Source of the DNA: Agathobaculum sp.
GTDB taxonomy: Bacteria > Bacillota > Clostridia > Oscillospirales > Butyricicoccaceae
Direction of reading: 5' to 3'
Assembly: GCF_022775115.1 (NCBI RefSeq)
Contig: NZ_JALFLA010000031.1
Location: 1-35,332, forward strand
DNA length: 35,332 nt
A program made the position numbers and the translations under genes. The notes below the pieces were generated by a model. The model was not told the DNA's origin. It ran no database searches and saw nothing but the letters and a program-made list of their open reading frames with translations. Positions 1-5,971 of the stretch are shown piece by piece; within the stretch, counting starts at the first letter, position 1; every line of letters begins with the position of its first letter.

Positions 1-86
1 ATCTCTTCCCGTGATGCATCACGGTAAGCATCATCTGCAATATGTACTGTCGCATGACCAAAATGATATGTTTTTACAATCGCCAT
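1..86 (-). CDS. partial small protein of unknown function, cut by the window edge
   Basis: An ATG at 86 is preceded by an excellent ribosome binding site (AGGAGG, complement of 95-100) and opens a frame that stays open to position 1. The visible 28 residues begin MAIVKTYHFG and contain VHIADDAYRD. I recognise this as resembling short hypothetical proteins that often accompany recombinases in clostridial elements, but I know no function for them. It lies downstream of the RHH gene at 190-339, separated by a hairpin repeat at 119-139, and the two are probably one transcript. The C-terminus is not in the window. Confidence 0.6.
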   Translation of the reverse strand, partial: MAIVKTYHFGHATVHIADDAYRDASREE

Positions 87-114
87 CTGCGCCACCTCCT
101 ATGCGATCCTATGC

Positions 115-141
115 GCTTACAGGCTTGTTTCTTGCCTGTCC
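115..141. repeat. 27-bp hairpin-containing repeat, copy 1
   Basis: The 27 bases here are identical, in the same orientation, to 912-938. Each contains the inverted repeat ACAGGC / GCCTGT around a 9-base loop. Both copies sit between two minus-strand genes, just upstream of the ribosome binding site of the second gene. A role in translation, RNA processing or attenuation is possible but is inference. Confidence 0.6.
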
Positions 142-189
142 ACCTTTTAGTTTGTTGGATAAGTCCATACTCGGCATGGTAAGCGTAAT

Positions 190-339
190 CTACTCTCCCA
201 ACCTCGCCTTCCACTCCTCAACAAAATCCCAAGCCATCTCAGAAATCAAAGAATTAACACTCAACCCGCGCTCTTTTGCTATGGCTTTGAGTTCTTCAGA
301 CAGTGAATGCACAAGCCTTATAGAAATTCGTTTATACAC
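190..339 (-). CDS. small ribbon-helix-helix (Arc/CopG-like) DNA-binding protein
   Basis: This 49-residue protein starts at a GTG (339-337); an in-frame TGA lies two codons upstream, so the start cannot be moved far, and GAAGG stands about eight bases before it. The sequence begins with the basic strand YKRISIRL (residues 2-9), followed by SEELKAIAKERGLSVNSLISEMA, split as helix, turn and helix, which is the standard RHH arrangement. Such proteins dimerise and insert the two N-terminal strands into the DNA major groove. It is divergent from the RHH gene at 466-792, and the 126 bases between them carry three repeated palindromes, so autoregulation of both genes is likely. An antitoxin or a transfer/partition regulator are alternatives. 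Confidence 0.75.
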   Translation of the reverse strand: MYKRISIRLVHSLSEELKAIAKERGLSVNSLISEMAWDFVEEWKARLGE

Positions 340-359
340 CTTTCATCGCCTTCTTTTAT

Positions 360-376
360 GACATAAATTTTATGTC
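360..376. promoter_or_regulatory. palindromic operator 1 of the RHH intergenic region
   Basis: GACATAAA and TTTATGTC flank one central T: a perfect 8-bp-arm palindrome, 20 bases upstream of the GTG of the leftward RHH gene. Related copies lie at 390-406 and 430-446. Repeated short palindromes between divergent RHH genes are typical RHH-family operators; the binding protein itself is inference. Confidence 0.65.
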
Positions 377-389
377 TATATAATAACAT

Positions 390-406
390 GACATATTTTT
401 TATGTC
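390..406. promoter_or_regulatory. palindromic operator 2 of the RHH intergenic region
   Basis: GACATATTTTTTATGTC shares both outer half-sites GACATA and TATGTC with the copy at 360-376; one internal base pair of the dyad is not matched. It lies 30 bases after copy 1, close to three helical turns, which would put both on one DNA face. Confidence 0.6.
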
Positions 407-429
407 AATTGATTTTCTCCAATTTTTAT

Positions 430-446
430 GGTATAAATTTTATGTC
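430..446. promoter_or_regulatory. palindromic operator 3 of the RHH intergenic region
   Basis: GGTATAAATTTTATGTC differs from the copy at 360-376 at two positions, both in the left half-site. It ends 20 bases before the start codon at 466 and just before its ribosome binding site, so occupancy would block initiation of the rightward RHH gene. Confidence 0.6.
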
Positions 447-465
447 ATTAAAGGAGGATAATTTT

Positions 466-792
466 ATGGCAAATGATATCTCTTTGACTATCCGGCTTCC
501 TCATGAACTTAACACTCAGCTTCAAACTGTTGCAAAAGAACTCGGCATGACAAAAACAAATCTTCTGCGCTCTGCCATACACGATCTCCTAACCACAGAT
601 GATATTACTCTCGATTTTTCATCAACGCCCGGAATAAAAGACAGGTTTGTGCTGAATGTCAATCAGATAACTCATGATATCCTTGAATCTGCTTGCGAGA
701 AGTATTCACAATCCATGAATGCGGTTGTTACTGCGGTAGGTGTTTTAGCTTTAGAACGCTCATCCAAATGGCTGCAATCAGCAAAGCCGTAA
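466..792 (+). CDS. protein with two ribbon-helix-helix-like domains
   Basis: The ATG at 466 follows AAGGAGG at the proper distance, so the open frame further upstream is not coding. The 108-residue product begins MANDISLTIRLPHELNT: a basic strand with alternating hydrophobic residues, then LQTVAKELGMTKTNLLRSAI, a clear RHH unit (residues about 4-40). A linker rich in D, S and T follows, and residues about 62-100 look like a second, more diverged unit (RFVLNVN strand, then ITHDILESACEKYSQSMNAV). A single chain with two RHH units could act as a pseudo-dimer. Its last 65 bases overlap the 3' end of the minus-strand RHH gene at 728-880. Three palindromes upstream suggest autoregulation. Function is inferred from fold only. 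Confidence 0.75.
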   Translation: MANDISLTIRLPHELNTQLQTVAKELGMTKTNLLRSAIHDLLTTDDITLDFSSTPGIKDRFVLNVNQITHDILESACEKYSQSMNAVVTAVGVLALERSSKWLQSAKP

Positions 793-880
793 CCGTTAAT
801 CCAGTTTGTTTTGATATTGCAACTAATGCTTCATGCAATTCAGCAGACAGGCGGACTGTTGTTTGCTCACCATCTCCCAC
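728..880 (-). CDS. small ribbon-helix-helix protein, convergent with the two-domain RHH gene
   Basis: This gene encodes 50 residues starting at GTG (880-878), with GGGAGG about ten bases upstream; the nearer ATG is in another frame that stops after six codons. The product has the RHH strand QTTVRLSAELHEAL (residues 6-19), then VAISKQTGLTVTALLIAAI, and ends in a hydrophobic, basic tail (SVLKLKHLPQ). It is downstream of the gene at 940-1113 on the same strand, separated by copy 2 of the hairpin repeat. Its 3' end overlaps the gene at 466-792 by 65 bp tail to tail, so one of the two C-termini may be longer than necessary or the overlap may be a way to balance expression. Confidence 0.65.
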   Translation of the reverse strand: MGDGEQTTVRLSAELHEALVAISKQTGLTVTALLIAAIWMSVLKLKHLPQ

Positions 881-911
881 GTTCCATTCACCTCCCACGA
901 AACCGTCCTGT

Positions 912-938
912 GCTTACAGGCTTGTTTCTTGCCTGTCC
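912..938. repeat. 27-bp hairpin-containing repeat, copy 2
   Basis: This is identical to 115-141, with arms ACAGGC / GCCTGT at 916-921 and 931-936. It lies directly behind the stop of the gene at 940-1113 and before the start region of the RHH gene at 728-880. Identity over 27 bases in otherwise unrelated flanks argues for a selected or mobile unit rather than chance. Confidence 0.6.
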
Positions 939-939
939 G

Positions 940-1113
940 CTATGCGCCTGCCCGCATATGATGGCACTCCTCATCGCTCATCAGAGCGACGCCTTGCATC
1001 ATGTAGTAAAAGCGCTCTTTTTCCTTGTCAGGCAGCTTACGCGCCATCTGCGCAATCTCTGCCACATCGATTTTTTCTTCCCGGCTGATCTGCCGCACAT
1101 CGCTTCTCAGCAT
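940..1113 (-). CDS. small protein of unknown function, divergent from the XRE repressor
   Basis: The 57-residue product starts at ATG (1113-1111), with GTGAGGTG six bases upstream. It begins MLRSDVRQISREEKIDVAEI and has a charged helical middle (ARKLPDKEKERFYYMMQGVA) and an acidic and His-containing end. I do not recognise a defined domain; short proteins with the pattern of aromatic residues and QG near the middle often lie next to phage-type repressors and are read as excisionase-like or repressor-like accessory factors, which is inference. It is transcribed away from the XRE gene at 1273, and the intergenic region between them carries three dyads, so it is probably a target of that repressor. 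Confidence 0.65.
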   Translation of the reverse strand: MLRSDVRQISREEKIDVAEIAQMARKLPDKEKERFYYMMQGVALMSDEECHHMRAGA

Positions 1114-1143
1114 TGCTATCACCTCACTGTTTCCTTATGCAAA

Positions 1144-1242
1144 TTTCATAATTGATTTTTCATAATCACATATTATCAAATATGAAATATCATGTCAAGT
1201 TCTTTTTTGATTCTCTCTTGACTTTTTATTTCATTTTTGATA
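1144..1242. promoter_or_regulatory. three TCA-N4-TGA dyads between divergent genes
   Basis: Dyads with the core TCA-N4-TGA and AT-rich flanks lie at 1146-1155, 1176-1185 and 1231-1240. The second and third share an ATTATCAAA-type half in opposite orientation. They occupy the space between the leftward small gene (start 1113) and the rightward XRE gene (start 1273), the arrangement of a phage-type repressor operator region. Binding by the XRE product is inference. Confidence 0.5.
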
Positions 1243-1244
1243 AT
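1218..1244 (+). promoter_or_regulatory. candidate promoter of the XRE-ImmA genes
   Basis: TTGACT at 1218-1223 and GATAAT at 1239-1244 form a sigma-A-like pair with a short 15-bp spacer. The third TCA-N4-TGA dyad lies inside the spacer and -10 element, so repressor binding would shut this promoter off, consistent with autoregulation. Confidence 0.45.
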
Positions 1245-1272
1245 CTGAAGCAAAGAAGTGGAGGTGTATACT

Positions 1273-1764
1273 TTGCAAGAACGTTTGAAAAGAATAAGAG
1301 AACATTTCGGAATGACACAATCCGAATTTGCAAAGAAACTCGGTATAGGGCAATCAACACTTGCCATGATGGAAGTGAGTAAGCGTGATATTTCGGATAG
1401 ACATATTAAGACCATTTGTGCCATTTTTTCTGTGAATGAAGAATGGTTGCGGAGTGGCGAGGGCGAAATGTTCATTGCAACGGACAAAAGCATCCTCTCT
1501 AACCTTGCATCTGAATATGACCTTGATACGCTTGACCAGAAAATTGTCGAGTGCTATTTGAACCTTAGCACGCTCCAAAGAAAGGTCATAAAGGACTATT
1601 TGCGCGACCTTGTTGACGCGGTGCTTTCCGACGAAAACTACGAAGCATATCGGGCGGACTATATCAAAGAAAATGCCAGTATGACAGCTGCGCGCAGCGG
1701 CCATGCCGGCAATTTGGACGAACTGAGAGAACTGTACGACAGCGCCAATCAGGACGATAAATAA
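1273..1764 (+). CDS. XRE-family helix-turn-helix repressor
   Basis: The start is TTG at 1273: GGAGGTG sits six bases before it, while the GTG at 1258 overlaps that ribosome binding site. The 163-residue protein has an N-terminal HTH of the Cro/CI type (residues about 2-60: LQERLKRIREHFGMTQSEFA, then KLGIGQSTLAMMEVSKRDIS) with the WLRSGEGEMF segment that ends many such domains. The C-terminal half is predicted helical and acidic (DLDTLDQKIVECYLNL, LRDLVDAVLSDENYEAYRAD) and probably mediates oligomerisation or contact with the protease. The next gene starts one base after its stop. In ICEBs1 and related phages an XRE repressor is cleaved by ImmA to release the element; the same role is inferred here. 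Confidence 0.9.
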   Translation: MQERLKRIREHFGMTQSEFAKKLGIGQSTLAMMEVSKRDISDRHIKTICAIFSVNEEWLRSGEGEMFIATDKSILSNLASEYDLDTLDQKIVECYLNLSTLQRKVIKDYLRDLVDAVLSDENYEAYRADYIKENASMTAARSGHAGNLDELRELYDSANQDDK

Positions 1765-1765
1765 A

Positions 1766-2407
1766 GTGCACAGATTTTTGCAGACTACTGCATGGAGCTT
1801 TTTGCTCGATCAAAAGATTGCATCTCTACCGGTTGACCCATTCCGCATCGCGACGCAAAATGGCTGGAAAATATACACCTATGAAGCATTTGCAGCCGTT
1901 GTGGGCAAATCTGTGGCAGAATTGATTGCGCGGTACGAAAAGGACGGATTTGCGTTTTGTGCAAAGGGCGATGATACGTTTGTTATCTGCTATAATTCTG
2001 CCCTGCCGTTTTCCACTTGCCGCTGGACGCTGCTGCATGAAATAGCGCATATCCATCTGGGGCATATCAATCCACAAACTCCCATTATTTCTCGCGTTCG
2101 AACAGAATATCGGTCTCTACTTGAACAGGAAGCGCAAGGATTTGCGCGCCGTGTACTCTGCCCATCCATTGTGCTGCATCACTGCAAAGCGCATGAGCCT
2201 GACCAAATCATGCGCTTATGCGGTGTAAGCCGCGATGCGGCCAATTATCGGAGCAAATACCTTAAAAAACTCGAAACGCGAGGAATGTTTGGCGTCCATC
2301 CGCTTGAAAGAAAGGTTGAAGCGCAATTTGCGCCTTTTGTTCGCCGCTACCTATTGCGAGAAGCCAAAATACGCTCCTGTAACTTTTGGCGGAGATCCAT
2401 CGCATAG
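1766..2407 (+). CDS. ImmA/IrrE-type metallo-endopeptidase
   Basis: The 213-residue product starts at GTG 1766, one base after the stop of the repressor gene, so translation is probably coupled. The zinc protease signature HEIAH is at residues 91-95 (His91, Glu92, His95), and a downstream Glu in EQEAQGFARRVLCP (about residue 122) fits the third zinc ligand and the family E-x2-A-x2-FA pattern. The C-terminal part (SRDAANYRSKYLKKL) matches the short helix found after the catalytic region in this family. Members cleave the partner XRE repressor and so induce excision and transfer functions. The C-terminus ends in a basic stretch with two cysteines, of unknown significance. Confidence 0.9.
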   Translation: MHRFLQTTAWSFLLDQKIASLPVDPFRIATQNGWKIYTYEAFAAVVGKSVAELIARYEKDGFAFCAKGDDTFVICYNSALPFSTCRWTLLHEIAHIHLGHINPQTPIISRVRTEYRSLLEQEAQGFARRVLCPSIVLHHCKAHEPDQIMRLCGVSRDAANYRSKYLKKLETRGMFGVHPLERKVEAQFAPFVRRYLLREAKIRSCNFWRRSIA

Positions 2408-2465
2408 CTAAAATAAACTGCGCAGCTAAAATAAAAAAAAACGGTCACCACGAGGGTAACCGGGT

Positions 2466-2494
2466 TTGACAAATCAATATAGGGCGGTTATAAT
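2466..2494 (+). promoter_or_regulatory. strong promoter of antitoxin RNA, cassette 1
   Basis: Perfect consensus boxes TTGACA (2466-2471) and TATAAT (2489-2494) are separated by exactly 17 bp. No protein gene follows; the transcript would begin near 2501 and end at the terminator at 2549-2592, giving a short RNA convergent with the toxin gene. The same promoter recurs at 2806-2834. Confidence 0.85.
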
Positions 2495-2500
2495 TAGAAA

Positions 2501-2592
2501 CAGAAAAGGGGCGCAGCCGGTTGACGGTTACTCCCTCAGACTATTGGTAAATGACCGCTAGTTTTGCGAGGACTGGGCGGTCATTTTCTTTT
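2501..2592 (+). ncRNA. antitoxin RNA of type I cassette 1 (predicted)
   Basis: The RNA is predicted from the perfect promoter at 2466-2494 to a hairpin with 10-bp arms AAATGACCGC (2549-2558) and GCGGTCATTT (2577-2586) followed by a T-rich tail. It carries no convincing reading frame. The hairpin covers the 3' end of the toxin gene on the other strand (the toxin stop codon lies inside the right arm), so the two transcripts overlap tail to tail, as in txpA/RatA and bsrG/SR4 of Bacillus. Base pairing of the 3' ends, starting at the 18-nt loop, would block the toxin mRNA or direct its decay. Exact ends are estimates. Confidence 0.7.
2549..2592. terminator. shared bidirectional terminator of cassette 1
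   Basis: There are 10-bp arms (2549-2558 and 2577-2586) around an 18-base loop, with a T-rich run on the right (TTTTCTTTT) serving the antitoxin RNA. Read leftward it lies just behind and partly within the toxin reading frame and probably also ends or shapes that mRNA. Confidence 0.75.
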
Positions 2593-2667
2593 GCTTATCT
2601 GAAGAATCAGACCGGCAAAGGCTATGAGCATAATCGCAAACTGAATCAGCTCCGAATATGTAACCAT
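2581..2667 (-). CDS. holin-like type I toxin peptide, cassette 1
   Basis: The gene encodes 28 residues: MVTYSELIQF at the start, a single hydrophobic helix (about residues 7-23, AIMLIAFAGLILQ) and a basic tail ending ISKRK. The ATG at 2667 follows GGGGAGGTGG; the open frame upstream of it is untranslated leader. Start MVTY, one membrane helix and a short lysine-rich end are the hallmarks of the putative holin-like toxin family (Hol_Tox) of Firmicutes, whose members damage the membrane when overproduced. A convergent RNA with a consensus promoter covers its 3' end, so it should be silenced by antisense RNA. A second copy at 2925-3011 differs by one residue. Role in stabilising the element is inference. 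Confidence 0.85.
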   Translation of the reverse strand: MVTYSELIQFAIMLIAFAGLILQISKRK

Positions 2668-2736
2668 AGCACCACCTCCCCTCCAAGGGAATGGTGGGAA
2701 TAACCGCCAACCGCTGGCACGGCTGTGCCCATTGAC

Positions 2737-2765
2737 AGGATAGCACACCATTCGGAAAATTACAA
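2737..2765 (-). promoter_or_regulatory. promoter of toxin gene, cassette 1
   Basis: Reading leftward: TTGTAA (2765-2760), 17 bp, then TATCCT (2742-2737) with an upstream TG (extended -10). The same layout is conserved in cassette 2. It gives a leader of roughly 60 nt before the toxin start. The promoter is weaker than that of the antitoxin, as expected for a type I pair. Confidence 0.65.
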
Positions 2766-2805
2766 AGAAATCCCACACCAATGTTGGTATATCGGCGCGG
2801 AAAAC

Positions 2806-2834
2806 TTGACAAATCAATATAGCGCGGTTATAAT
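2806..2834 (+). promoter_or_regulatory. strong promoter of antitoxin RNA, cassette 2
   Basis: TTGACA (2806-2811) and TATAAT (2829-2834) with a 17-bp spacer, differing from cassette 1 by a single base in the spacer (AGCGCGG instead of AGGGCGG). Confidence 0.85.
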
Positions 2835-2840
2835 TAGAAA

Positions 2841-2936
2841 CAGAAAAGGGGCGCAGCCGGTTGACGGTTATTCCCTTAGATAATTGTCAAGAAAATGACC
2901 GCTATCATGTAGGAGTGAGGGCGGTCATTTTCTTTT
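2841..2936 (+). ncRNA. antitoxin RNA of type I cassette 2 (predicted)
   Basis: The RNA is predicted from the promoter at 2806-2834 to the hairpin with arms AAATGACCGC (2893-2902) and GCGGTCATTT (2921-2930). The 5' part (GGGGCGCAGCCGGTTGACGG) is identical to cassette 1, while the segment before the hairpin and the 18-nt loop differ strongly (7 of 18 loop bases match). This is what would be expected if each RNA must recognise its own toxin mRNA. Ends are estimates. Confidence 0.7.
2893..2936. terminator. shared bidirectional terminator of cassette 2
   Basis: It has the same 10-bp arms as cassette 1 around a different 18-base loop, followed by TTCTTTT. The toxin stop codon (2927-2925) lies within the right arm. 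Confidence 0.75.
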
Positions 2937-3011
2937 GCTTATCTGAAAAATCAGACCAGCAAAGGCTATGAGCATAATCGCAAACTGAATCAGCTCCGAA
3001 TATGTAACCAT
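2925..3011 (-). CDS. holin-like type I toxin peptide, cassette 2
   Basis: The gene encodes 28 residues, identical to the peptide at 2581-2667 except for Phe instead of Leu at position 22 (GLIFQISKRK). It has the same ATG context with GGGGAGGTGG, the same single membrane helix and basic end. Conservation of the protein with silent changes in the DNA suggests that both copies are still under selection. It is covered at its 3' end by the convergent RNA at 2841-2936. It lies 155 bases upstream of the recombinase start on the other strand. Confidence 0.85.
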   Translation of the reverse strand: MVTYSELIQFAIMLIAFAGLIFQISKRK

Positions 3012-3080
3012 AGCACCACCTCCCCTCTAAGGGAATGGTGGGAATAACCGCCAACCGCTGGCACGGCTGCGCCTGTTGAC

Positions 3081-3109
3081 AGGATAGCACATCATTCGGA
3101 AAAATACAA
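3081..3109 (-). promoter_or_regulatory. promoter of toxin gene, cassette 2
   Basis: Reading leftward: TTGTAT (3109-3104), 17 bp, TATCCT (3086-3081) with extended TG. Spacing and -10 are conserved with cassette 1 although the surrounding bases differ, which supports function. Confidence 0.65.
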
Positions 3110-3165
3110 GAGAATCCCCATCATCCGGGGATGCACTAAAATATAAGTATAGGGGGATGGTCTTA

Positions 3166-4707
3166 ATGGCCGATAAATACTGCATTTACCTGCGCAAATC
3201 CCGCGCTGATCTTGAGGCCGAAGCACGCGGAGAAGCGGATGTTCTCGTCACACACCGTAAGAATTTGCTGGAATTAGCTGAATCACGTGGCTACACAATC
3301 GGAAAAATTTATGAGGAAATTGTTTCTGGAGATACAATTGCAGCGCGGCCAGAAATGCAAAAATTACTGCGTGAGGTAGAATCCAGAAACTGGTGTGGTG
3401 TGCTTGTGCACGATATTGAGCGCCTGGCGCGCGGAGACAGTATCGACCAAGGCATTGTCACACGAGCCTTTAAGTTTAGCAGCACCTATATCATTACGCC
3501 CGGAAAGGTGTTTGACCCTAATAATTATTATGATGAGGAGCATCTCGAGTTTGATCTTTTCATGTCGCGGCGGGAATACAAAATGATTAACCGCCGCCTA
3601 CAGGCAGGACGTCAGGCCGGCGCGCGTGATGGCCGATGGTTGGGTGGCCCTCCGCCATACGGCTATGACAGTCAACGCCTGCACCGGGAAAAGGGCTACA
3701 CTCTCGTACCCAATCAAGACGCGGATACGATACGTGCCATTTTCCAACTATATGTTGATGACCCTAAACTGGGTACTGTCCGTCTTTGCAATAAATTGAA
3801 TGATCTGGGATACCGCTCGCCAACAGGAAAACTATTCAACGTCGGCATTATCAAGGATATCTTGAGAAATCCCATCTACGCAGGGTATGTTACATGGGGG
3901 CGGCGTGGATATGTTAAAACAGTCAAAGATGGAGAAATCATCTATAACTATCCCCGTCACAAAGAATACCCGATATATCGCGGGCGGCACGAACCGCTCA
4001 TCACGGAAGAAGTCTGGAACGCAGCCCAAGAAAAGCTGAAAAAGCGCTCGTTTCCTGTTCCCCGCAGCAAAACATTGCAGAACCCATTCGCCGGCCTGTT
4101 GATCTGCGGTAAATGCGGACACAAAATGCAAGCCAGACCGCAAAGTGGAGGACAGTATATTTATTGCCATCATTACTGTGGTATGGTGTCTGCGCGCATA
4201 GATGAGGTCGAGAGCTCATTGATCTCCGCGCTAAGAAAATGGCTTGCAGACTATCAGGCTGCAAGCAAGTTACCAGTTCAATCTGAGCGAGAAATTGACG
4301 CGCTGGAAGCGGCATTGACGCGGCTCAATAACGATATCGCCGCAATAGACGAACAGCGCGCCCGCGCATTCGAACTGGTTGAAACGGGTGTCTATACCCC
4401 GGAACTGTTCAAAGAGCGCCAATCGCTGTTAACGGCTCGGCGTGACCGCATCGCGGACGCTGCCGCCCATACCAGAGAGGAGATTGATCGGCTGCATCGT
4501 GCCGAGCAAACGAAGCAAACACTTATCCCTCGTGTTGCATCGGTAATCAACACCTACGAAACAACCGAAAGCGCGCAGGAAAAAAATAGTATGCTCCGAT
4601 CGATCCTCTCACGAATCGTTTACAGTAAAACGACCACTACAATGAGCGAAACAGGCAGCGATCTGACCCTAACGCTATATCCTGTAATTCCTGCTACGGA
4701 TCACTAA
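3166..4707 (+). CDS. large serine recombinase (site-specific integrase/excisionase)
   Basis: The start at 3166 is preferred: AGGGGG (3151-3156) lies nine bases before it but abuts the ATG at 3157. The product has 513 residues. The resolvase-type catalytic domain (about 1-140) carries the nucleophile Ser12 in YLRKSRAD and the active-site arginines in HDIERLARGD (Arg86, Arg89). A recombinase domain (about 160-280) follows, with the PPYGYD start, then a zinc ribbon (CGKCGHKM, later CHHYCG) at about 320-350, and a coiled coil (about 375-460). This is the architecture of SpoIVCA/SprA and phage integrases. The gene sits at the very end of the element; its stop codon is followed in frame by GH18 coding sequence, so the att site is within a few bases. 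No excision factor (RDF) is identified. Confidence 0.95.
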   Translation: MADKYCIYLRKSRADLEAEARGEADVLVTHRKNLLELAESRGYTIGKIYEEIVSGDTIAARPEMQKLLREVESRNWCGVLVHDIERLARGDSIDQGIVTRAFKFSSTYIITPGKVFDPNNYYDEEHLEFDLFMSRREYKMINRRLQAGRQAGARDGRWLGGPPPYGYDSQRLHREKGYTLVPNQDADTIRAIFQLYVDDPKLGTVRLCNKLNDLGYRSPTGKLFNVGIIKDILRNPIYAGYVTWGRRGYVKTVKDGEIIYNYPRHKEYPIYRGRHEPLITEEVWNAAQEKLKKRSFPVPRSKTLQNPFAGLLICGKCGHKMQARPQSGGQYIYCHHYCGMVSARIDEVESSLISALRKWLADYQAASKLPVQSEREIDALEAALTRLNNDIAAIDEQRARAFELVETGVYTPELFKERQSLLTARRDRIADAAAHTREEIDRLHRAEQTKQTLIPRVASVINTYETTESAQEKNSMLRSILSRIVYSKTTTTMSETGSDLTLTLYPVIPATDH

Positions 4708-5034
4708 CAACTACGAGGTTATGACTGGATCTTGCCGTATATTGAAGGGCGCTCACGCGCACGCAGTCTGGGCAATGTGCAGGCAGTCGAACAGGCCATA
4801 CAGGTGGGTGCGCCCATCCAGTATGACGAGACGGCACAGTCGCCGCATTACAACTACTGGCGTGAGCGCGCCGAGCACGAGGTCTGGTTCGAGGACGCGC
4901 GCAGCATCCGCGTCAAGTTGGCGCTCGCGGGCGAATATCAGCTGCGCGGTGTGAGCATCTGGAACATTATGCGCTACTTTCCGCAGCTTTGGCTGGTGCT
5001 GAACAACCTGTATCAGATTGAAAAGCTGCCTTAA
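4708..5034 (+). pseudogene. 3' fragment of a GH18 spore-type glycoside hydrolase, interrupted by the element
   Basis: The frame is open from immediately after the recombinase stop and has no ribosome binding site or credible start. The about 109 encoded residues match the C-terminal third of YaaH/SleL-like GH18 proteins: GYDWILPYIEG, the PIQYDETAQSPHYNYW segment, VWFEDARSIRVKLALAGEYQ, and the final LRGVSIWNIMRYFPQLWLVL helix. These enzymes act on spore cortex peptidoglycan during germination. The catalytic DxxDxDxE motif lies further upstream in the family and is missing here, so this piece alone is not an enzyme. It would become a full gene if the recombinase excises the element and the 5' part lies on the left side. 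Confidence 0.85.
4709..4718. other. inferred right attachment junction (att) of the element
   Basis: Left of this point the frame encodes the recombinase C-terminus and stop; from 4717 onward it encodes GYDWILPYIEG of a GH18 enzyme. The bases AACTAC (4709-4714) would encode the Asn-Tyr that commonly precedes GYDW, but are two bases out of frame with it, which is what a recombined core could look like. The exact crossover dinucleotide cannot be fixed without the left junction. Confidence 0.5.
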
Positions 5035-5042
5035 AAATCGGG

Positions 5043-5079
5043 AAAATCGGCCGGGATATTCCAATTCCGTCCGATTTTT
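5043..5079 (+). terminator. terminator after the GH18 fragment
   Basis: Arms AAAATCGG (5043-5050) and CCGATTTT (5071-5078) are followed by T residues, eight bases behind the GH18 stop codon. Presence of an intact terminator indicates the host gene end is preserved. Confidence 0.7.
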
Positions 5080-5203: not shown

Positions 5204-5971
5204 ATGAAACTGAAAAAGCTCGCGCCGATCGCGCTGGCACTGACCGTCGCCACATCCACCGCCGCAGGCGCGGCAAACGTGCAGACGATCGTCAAATACT
5301 ACGCTTCGTGCTCGATCCCCTCGCAGGCGCAGCAGCAGATCATCCAAAAGCTGTGTGAAAAGTTTGACTTCTCCTTCTGCGGCCAGCAGAACAACTGCCC
5401 GAGCGTAAAGCCGGATGAGACCCCGGATACCACACCGGACGAAACCCCCGACACCGCCCCGGATGAGACCCCGGACACCACACCGGATGAGATCCCCGAC
5501 ACCGCTCCCGACGAAACCCCGGACATCCCTCCGGTGACCGATTCGGAGCAGACACCGGACAGCAAACCCGAGCAGACACCCGACAACGACACCACGCAGG
5601 GCAACTTTGCCGCACAGGTAGCGGTACTGGTCAATCAGGAGCGCGCAAAGGCCGGTCTGTCTCCCCTGAAGGTGGACGCCAAGGTGCAGCAAGCTGCGCA
5701 GGTGCGCGCAAAGGAGACCGTGCAGTCCTTCTCCCACACCCGTCCGAACGGCACCTCCTGCTTTACTGCGCTGACCGAGGCGGGCGTGCAGTACCGCGGC
5801 GCGGGCGAGAATATCGCATACGGACAGACCTCACCCGAAGCGGTCATGCGGGCTTGGATGAACTCCGAAGGCCACCGCAAAAACATCCTGAACCCCAGCT
5901 TCACGACGATCGGCGTTGGCTACACCGTCGTAGGCGGCACGCCGTATTGGACGCAGCTTTTCACCTATTAA
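5204..5971 (+). CDS. secreted CAP-domain (SCP/PR1, YkwD-like) protein
   Basis: The 255-residue protein starts at ATG 5204 behind CAAGGAGG. It has a signal peptide (MKLKKLAPIALALTVATSTA, cleavage near AGAA), a short Cys-containing segment (about 28-66), a low-complexity spacer of repeated TPDET/PDT units (about 69-125), and a C-terminal CAP domain (about 135-255). The last shows the family features VLVNQERAKAGLSPLKVD, FSHTRPNG, GENIAYG and HRKNIL. CAP proteins of this type are extracellular and common in spore formers (YkwD, spore-coat associated forms), with no agreed enzymatic activity. The Thr/Pro/Asp/Glu spacer probably spans the cell wall. The repeats are also repeats at DNA level and may vary in number between strains. 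Promoter at 5113; a hairpin follows the gene. Confidence 0.9.
   Translation: MKLKKLAPIALALTVATSTAAGAANVQTIVKYYASCSIPSQAQQQIIQKLCEKFDFSFCGQQNNCPSVKPDETPDTTPDETPDTAPDETPDTTPDEIPDTAPDETPDIPPVTDSEQTPDSKPEQTPDNDTTQGNFAAQVAVLVNQERAKAGLSPLKVDAKVQQAAQVRAKETVQSFSHTRPNGTSCFTALTEAGVQYRGAGENIAYGQTSPEAVMRAWMNSEGHRKNILNPSFTTIGVGYTVVGGTPYWTQLFTY

Follow-up and report, generated by a model that had tools for sequence, protein, structure and literature searches.

A YaaH/SleL-like spore gene of Agathobaculum divided into three pieces by two large serine recombinase elements

Introduction

In the assembled genome of an Agathobaculum strain, a LysM-GH18 gene of the YaaH/SleL spore family is split by two elements, both of which encode a large serine recombinase (LSR) of their own, and in silico removal of both reconstructs the gene in frame. 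These are probably sporulation gene-intervening elements of the skin, SPbeta or gin kind, whose excision and its timing in the mother cell we infer. A further reading, which we favor only by a narrow margin over its negation, is that two independent recombinases would join three exon-like pieces while the mother cell is dying, that this gene together with sigK would be a standing target in Agathobaculum and its relatives, and that the late spore program would need two or more DNA excisions per cell. The window, by which we mean the whole 35,332-nucleotide stretch that was analyzed, corresponds to the complete contig C22 of an assembly of 88 contigs and 2.19 Mb.

Excerpts of the published accounts cited here describe interruptions of sigK, spsM, spoVFB, spoVR, gerE, kamA and yabG (PMC4191935, PMC5595907, PMC6957869, PMC10747680, PMC5025042). 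According to these excerpts, the skin element in sigK of B. subtilis and C. difficile is likewise an LSR element within a mother-cell gene that excision restores (PMC5025042, PMC6957869); it differs in its host gene and in that its excision is known, whereas the present case comprises two elements in one gene, known from sequence alone. SPbeta is a prophage in the spore-envelope gene spsM of B. subtilis that is rejoined in sporulation (PMC4191935, PMC6957869), whereas the elements described below range from 4-kb islands to phage-like entities and occupy two sites of one gene. The gin element in gerE of B. cereus interrupts its gene without being a phage, has serine recombinases and uses a core of 9 bp, and one of our elements (element A) looks alike; however, gin spans 28.6 kb and has three recombinases (PMC5595907), while element A spans 6.4 kb and carries one LSR and a gene for an SLH-domain surface protein. 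The prophage-like yin element in yabG of C. botulinum also resides in a spore gene of the Clostridia, but it is reported as unique to one strain (PMC10747680), whereas the interruptions considered here recur across species and families. Finally, among the heterocyst interruption elements of cyanobacteria, multiple elements are present in 10 of the 87 interrupted genes, with up to four in nifD, and these provide a precedent for multi-piece genes while differing in cell type and genes (PMC4874684).

Within the open-licence PMC literature we found neither yaaH or sleL as an interrupted host gene nor any spore gene cut by two elements, and cases elsewhere are possible. If our reading is true, one more host gene joins the short list of those rebuilt by programmed excision in sporulation. 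Within that literature, this is the first example of a spore gene with two interrupting elements, and it shows that the same codons have been reached by recombinases of two distant lineages. New recombinase/att pairs come with the system, as do intervening elements of very small size (4-6 kb). Because the site is empty in some species and strains and occupied in others, natural comparison could help to decide between two roles for such elements, that of parasites which a disposable cell can tolerate and that of timing devices.

The host gene and its reconstruction

An initial annotation of the window had proposed that a serine-recombinase element splits a spore-germination GH18 hydrolase gene, with the C-terminal part of the gene lying in frame behind the recombinase stop. 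This stands: the recombinase TAA (4705-4707) ends 12 bp ahead of the att core, and GH18 coding sequence continues in frame to a stop codon at 5032-5034. The piece is the last quarter of the gene (105 of 425 codons), not the C-terminal third as first described, and, where the annotation saw no start signal, an in-frame TTG is present at 4732. The terminator, described as intact, corresponds to a hairpin match on the + strand, but the match is weak, and the 6 matches in the region are not clearly more than the 3.8 (sd 1.9) of shuffled sequence. Being a fragment, the 3' piece scores 25.2 bits against PF00704, under the 29.6 cut-off; in 21 congeners the C-terminus of a GH18 protein is 79-91% identical to it, G016 yielded a partial match only (61%), and no match was obtained in G015 or G021.

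Table 1. Locations of the features in the window and on other contigs and loci (window coordinates unless a contig or locus is named)
Feature	Location	Strand	Basis or content
Element B, right-hand part	1..4727		attL/attR pair and low GC
Possible ribbon-helix-helix protein	472..789	+	RHH_3 19.3 bits, under 21.6 cut-off
Cro/CI-type HTH regulator, element B	1258..1764	+	HTH_3, E 1e-12
ImmA/IrrE-like metalloprotease (Peptidase_M78), element B	1766..2407	+	E 8.6e-10
Two direct copies of a 315-bp unit, 91% identical	2466..3118		one promoter (+) and one 28-codon ORF in each copy
LSR, element B	3166..4707	+	Pfam domains; homology to site-B LSRs
3' piece of LysM-GH18 YaaH/SleL-like gene, last 105 codons and stop	4717..5034	+	PF00704 score, congener alignment, join
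attR core TATGACTG, site B	4720..4727	+	common to attL on C62 at 10639
Terminator-like hairpin behind gene (weak)	5052..5069	+	one + strand match
5' part of gene	C62 3247-4089		281 codons, up to MTYEW; contains GVDIDFEY
Middle part of gene	C62 10519-10646		42 codons
1405-aa protein gene, element A	L052:4263-8480		SLH, Ig-like and MBG domains; transglutaminase match below cut-off
LexA-like boxes	35-60 bases before LSR start		L158 near 17835 (G045); L057, L059, L062, L064, L066

The missing parts of the gene lie on contig C62 (11,055 bp), which carries, in order, the 5' part, element A, the middle part and the left edge of element B (Table 1). Element A is approximately 6.4 kb long and carries a second LSR at C62 8842-10470. 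The gene is accordingly found in three pieces on two contigs of one genome, separated by two elements each with its own LSR; the 5' part that the annotation had suggested should be sought is thus present, but the annotation did not foresee that element B borders a middle piece and that a second element separates this piece from the 5' part. Site A falls in the codons for MTYEW and site B in those for NYGYDW. When the pieces are joined, at TATGARTGG for site A and at TATGACTG for site B, the latter being the matching att core that the annotation had suggested should be sought and that is common to both ends of element B, a single 425-aa open frame results. This frame is 74-82% identical to 13 intact orthologues, with which it is colinear and gap-free at the joins; these 13 congeners, with an intact gene, also bear out the suggested comparison with relatives lacking the element. 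A contig search of the window genome found no second complete homologue of the GH18 gene. A match on contig C42 was considered as a second copy and rejected, as the protein is a different, glycosidase-like one that aligns weakly and over a part only (14.8 bits, positions 87-133).

By these matches and those that follow, the host gene is assigned to the YaaH/SleL spore family of LysM-GH18 enzymes. The best PDB match of the alignment of the 13 intact orthologues is 4s3k, 'Spore germination protein YaaH' (profile 3-424, E 9.5e-98), and the same alignment also matches 4s3j, 'Cortical-lytic enzyme'. One intact orthologue passes the NCBIfam cut-off of the spore LysM model TIGR02899 in two stretches, and the GVDIDFEY of the 5' piece fits DxxDxDxE, which we take to be the catalytic motif of GH18 enzymes. 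Both cut sites lie in conserved motifs: among the 24 more distant homologues listed, MTYEW is present in 24, NY[G/A]Y in 22 and the exact NYGYDW in 14.

The elements, their recombinases and att sites

Element B is seen only as edges on two contigs, its left edge being C62:10639-11055, and a comparison of the end of C62 with the start of the window, 400 bases each, found no overlap at 16, 20 or 25 bases. The contrast drawn in the initial annotation between an AT-rich element side and a GC-rich chromosome is real, with a GC content of 0.46 for 1-4707 and 0.62 for 5100-35332. The LSR open reading frame extends from 3157 to 4707, with the start at 3166 set by homology; Resolvase, Recombinase and Zn_ribbon_recom domains all score above the Pfam cut-offs, and the same set of three (Resolvase, Recombinase and zinc ribbon) is present in all four LSRs scanned with Pfam. 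Each of the two direct repeat copies ahead of this gene has a perfect TTGACA-17-TATAAT promoter on the + strand and, on the other strand, a hydrophobic ORF of 28 codons; by eye only, they resemble a type I toxin-antitoxin unit, and the ORFs yielded no Pfam family above cut-off. On the chromosomal side, the next gene (5204-5971) codes for a protein with a CAP domain and a repetitive linker rich in TPDE.

Element A has the GC content of its host (0.606 vs 0.607). That it is plain chromosome, as this composition and a chromosomal-looking first gene might suggest, was rejected on the basis of its att pair and LSR. A Pfam search of its large protein found no phage family, and its LSR had no match in IMG/VR.

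The recombinases fall into distinct lineages. One clade corresponds to site B and comprises the window LSR and those of G006, G007 and G055, to which the window protein is 72.6%, 73.6% and 54.5% identical, respectively. Another clade comprises the Agathobaculum site-A LSRs other than that of element A, plus that of G045. The element A LSR is only 21% identical to the window LSR and 21-28% identical to both of these clades, yet it shares 54.6% identity with the LSR at site A in G346, a member of another family of the order; two distant LSR lineages have therefore reached site A.

With a site-specific recombinase at the element end, a short core at both ends and a frame that in silico excision restores, the sequence itself shows integration, att sites and restoration of the frame. 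In the mechanism that we propose, a YaaH/SleL-type LysM-GH18 spore gene is interrupted at sites A and B by two site-specific elements, each moved by its own LSR with crossover inside the short core. The predicted crossover dinucleotide at site B of the window is TG at 4726-4727. The dyad centers predicted for attP are GA in all six site-A elements tested that have the common LSR, TA for element A, and TG in both elements at site B, that of the window (12/22, P 0.16) being tied with an off-core center. The strongest dyad in the core is that of G045 (20/22). By shuffling, the dyads of G045, G024, element A and G007 (TG, 13/22, P 0.0025) are significant at 0.01, and those of the window, G017, G020, G009 and G014 are individually non-significant (P 0.06-0.28).

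Cargo bears on a rival explanation that we consider unlikely, ordinary lysogeny, in which phages and islands would use a conserved gene as attB, excision would occur by SOS induction or chance only, and loss of the enzyme would be tolerated. Some elements do carry phage genes: ten proteins each were scanned from the G045 element, where they include portal, terminase, tape measure, baseplate and endolysin proteins and an integrase, and from the L218 record (L262/L263), where several are tail, portal and replication proteins. The same gene, however, is also occupied by small elements in which, by means other than PHROGs, no phage gene besides the LSR was recognized. By eye, the 5.6-kb element of G336 (L270) carries a K+ transporter pair of the KtrB/KtrA type and another transporter, and a 55-codon ORF directly ahead of its LSR is a candidate recombination directionality factor only. 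Upstream of the G045 element, and not part of it, is a further serine recombinase gene (L159:831-2486), whose product is 30% identical to that LSR of element A.

Occurrence among relatives

Across the genus set of 25 Agathobaculum genomes (several of the compared genomes being MAGs), the gene is interrupted at one or both sites in 11 and intact in 13, with only a divergent partial match in G016. The interrupted genomes are G000, G006, G007, G009, G014, G015, G017, G019, G020, G021 and G024; ten of them are interrupted at site A and three at site B, G000 and G006 being interrupted at both, and the right edge of the interruption in G019 is a contig end. Screening a family set of 87 genomes, genus included, for short frames added two interrupted genomes, G045 (site A) and G055. 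The middle piece of G055 is bounded by a site-A edge and, at its opposite end, by a site-B edge, and the 3' piece of this genome lies behind an LSR; no 5' piece was found there. From an order sample of 295 genomes drawn, 84 had a 3' match at E<=1e-20, and 7 genomes with frames of 145-307 aa were inspected, with G215 left out. Both gene halves lie on one contig with an LSR between them in G346, G318 and G336, and G333 has an LSR and the 3' half only. We rejected G232, in which the pieces are adjacent and only the frame breaks, as well as G114 and G305, whose short frames come from contig ends.

In four genomes with both halves on a single contig, G045 among them, element sizes are 20.5 kb (G045), 9.7 kb (G346), 5.6 kb (G336) and 4.0 kb (G318), and the joins are in frame in all four, each outside the genus. 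The cut lies approximately 10 bases downstream of site A in G336 and in the IMG/VR contigs L171 and L177. This recurrence bears on whether the split is a chimera of assembly or binning, an explanation we find hardly credible: the window genome is in 88 contigs and element B breaks at contig ends, but the same architecture is found in other assemblies, including on a 1.55-Mb contig of G045, and a like junction of LSR with 3' half appears in two IMG/VR records.

In those two records, L218 and L219, the 3' half is preceded by an LSR with 83-84% identity to the site-A clade, and no 5' half was found inside them. Their host flank is 99.5% identical over 1.5 kb to G001, in which the gene is intact; beyond 1.5 kb it has no match within a 16-kb stretch of G001. 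Occupied and empty sites thus occur in records resembling one species. This could reflect vegetative phase variation, with elements flipping in and out in a subpopulation independently of sporulation, and excision of yin is described as heterogeneous in the excerpt of its report (PMC10747680). We nonetheless judge phase variation improbable, as the host gene is of a spore family and has a sigma-K-like promoter motif, and we retain excision in sporulation as the preferred reading.

Selection and age of the splits

Selection on the pieces was estimated as dN/dS by the method of Nei and Gojobori. For the 3' piece, median values are 0.087 between split genes (36 pairs), 0.090 between intact genes (77 of 78 pairs being usable) and 0.105 for pairs of one split and one intact gene (117); for the 5' piece, the corresponding medians are 0.115 (55), 0.157 (77 of 78) and 0.170 (143). 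For example, the 3' pieces of G017 and G020, both split at site A, differ by a dN of 0.004 and a dS of 0.41. Where insertions are recent or exchanged, as some may be, these low values would partly reflect time before the split, which makes us slightly less confident in the preferred reading.

That the gene is a pseudogene decaying after insertion is highly improbable given such values and joined frames that are open in silico in all five genomes joined, even though no full-length protein is possible while the gene is split and the middle piece was not found in G006 nor the 3' half in G015 and G021. Conservation also weighs on ordinary lysogeny: a promoterless 3' piece should decay unless rejoined, so that 3' pieces conserved at the protein level count against mere tolerated loss, and each genome has at most one 3' match, with no replacement gene end seen.

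In the lysogenic account's favor, the LSR looks younger than the host gene in 5 of the 15 pairs among G009, G014, G015, G017, G020 and G024, its dS being less than half that of the 5' piece; in 8 pairs it is within 20% of the 5'-piece dS. The latter value fits insertions inherited with the host, and a dS far below that of the host fits exchange or re-insertion, so that some insertions may be recent or exchanged. We rejected one old insertion inherited by this whole group, as the LSR dS values are mixed and exchange or re-insertion is as likely.

Regulation and sporulation context

Under our preferred reading, we infer that LSRs acting with putative directionality factors would excise both elements in the mother cell during sporulation, after which a sigma-K-type promoter would transcribe the rebuilt gene for the 425-aa enzyme, while the forespore genome would retain the elements. 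Upstream of the GH18 gene, CAC stands exactly 17 bases before CATA in 18 of the 23 genomes with enough upstream sequence, aligned on a CATA 29-32 bases before the ATG (G013 and G016 were left out), against a maximum of 5 in 5,000 shuffles. This CAC-N17-CATA arrangement fits the sigma-K consensus and is predicted to be a sigma-K-like promoter. The excerpts cited give, for C. difficile, a -35 AC for sigma-K and ATA for sigma-E (PMC3789822), and for B. subtilis sigma-K a gap of 14-16 between promoter elements (PMC517825).

Sporulation markers are widespread in the genus set. Spo0A_C is over cut-off in 23 of the 25 genomes, two of which (G011 and G022) have only partial, weak matches; SpoIVA_ATPase is present in 20, and SpoIVA was not found in the interrupted G009, G015 and G020 or in the intact G010 and G012. 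The sigK model TIGR02846 matches in all 25 genomes, never over cut-off, and none of the controls is over cut-off either.

Control of the recombinases appears to vary. A LexA-like GAACN4GTTC box lies upstream of the LSR in all five tested members of the site-A clade and in G045, as ordinary lysogeny would have it, and an inexact one is seen by eye in L218/L219; the box is absent upstream of the LSRs of the window, G006, G007 and element A. Occurring at some LSRs only, these boxes suggest SOS control of some elements and argue against one uniform regulation. Ahead of the window LSR no clear sporulation promoter was seen, and sigma-factor control of this gene was set aside, as by eye it has no motif in common with G006 and G007.

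As a separate observation, sigK also looks interrupted in Agathobaculum. It appears cut near residue 84, with an LSR beside each cut, in G020 (L274, L275) and G006 (L276). It ends near residue 227 in G014 (L277; LSR beside it) and G008 (L279; weak LSR match), as well as in G010 (L278) and G021 (L280), whose stretches have no LSR match. In G011 (L281) it breaks off at about residue 81, not far from a contig end, and in the window genome the sigK match covers residues 13-242 of 244. If the interruption of sigK is true, G006 would need three excisions.
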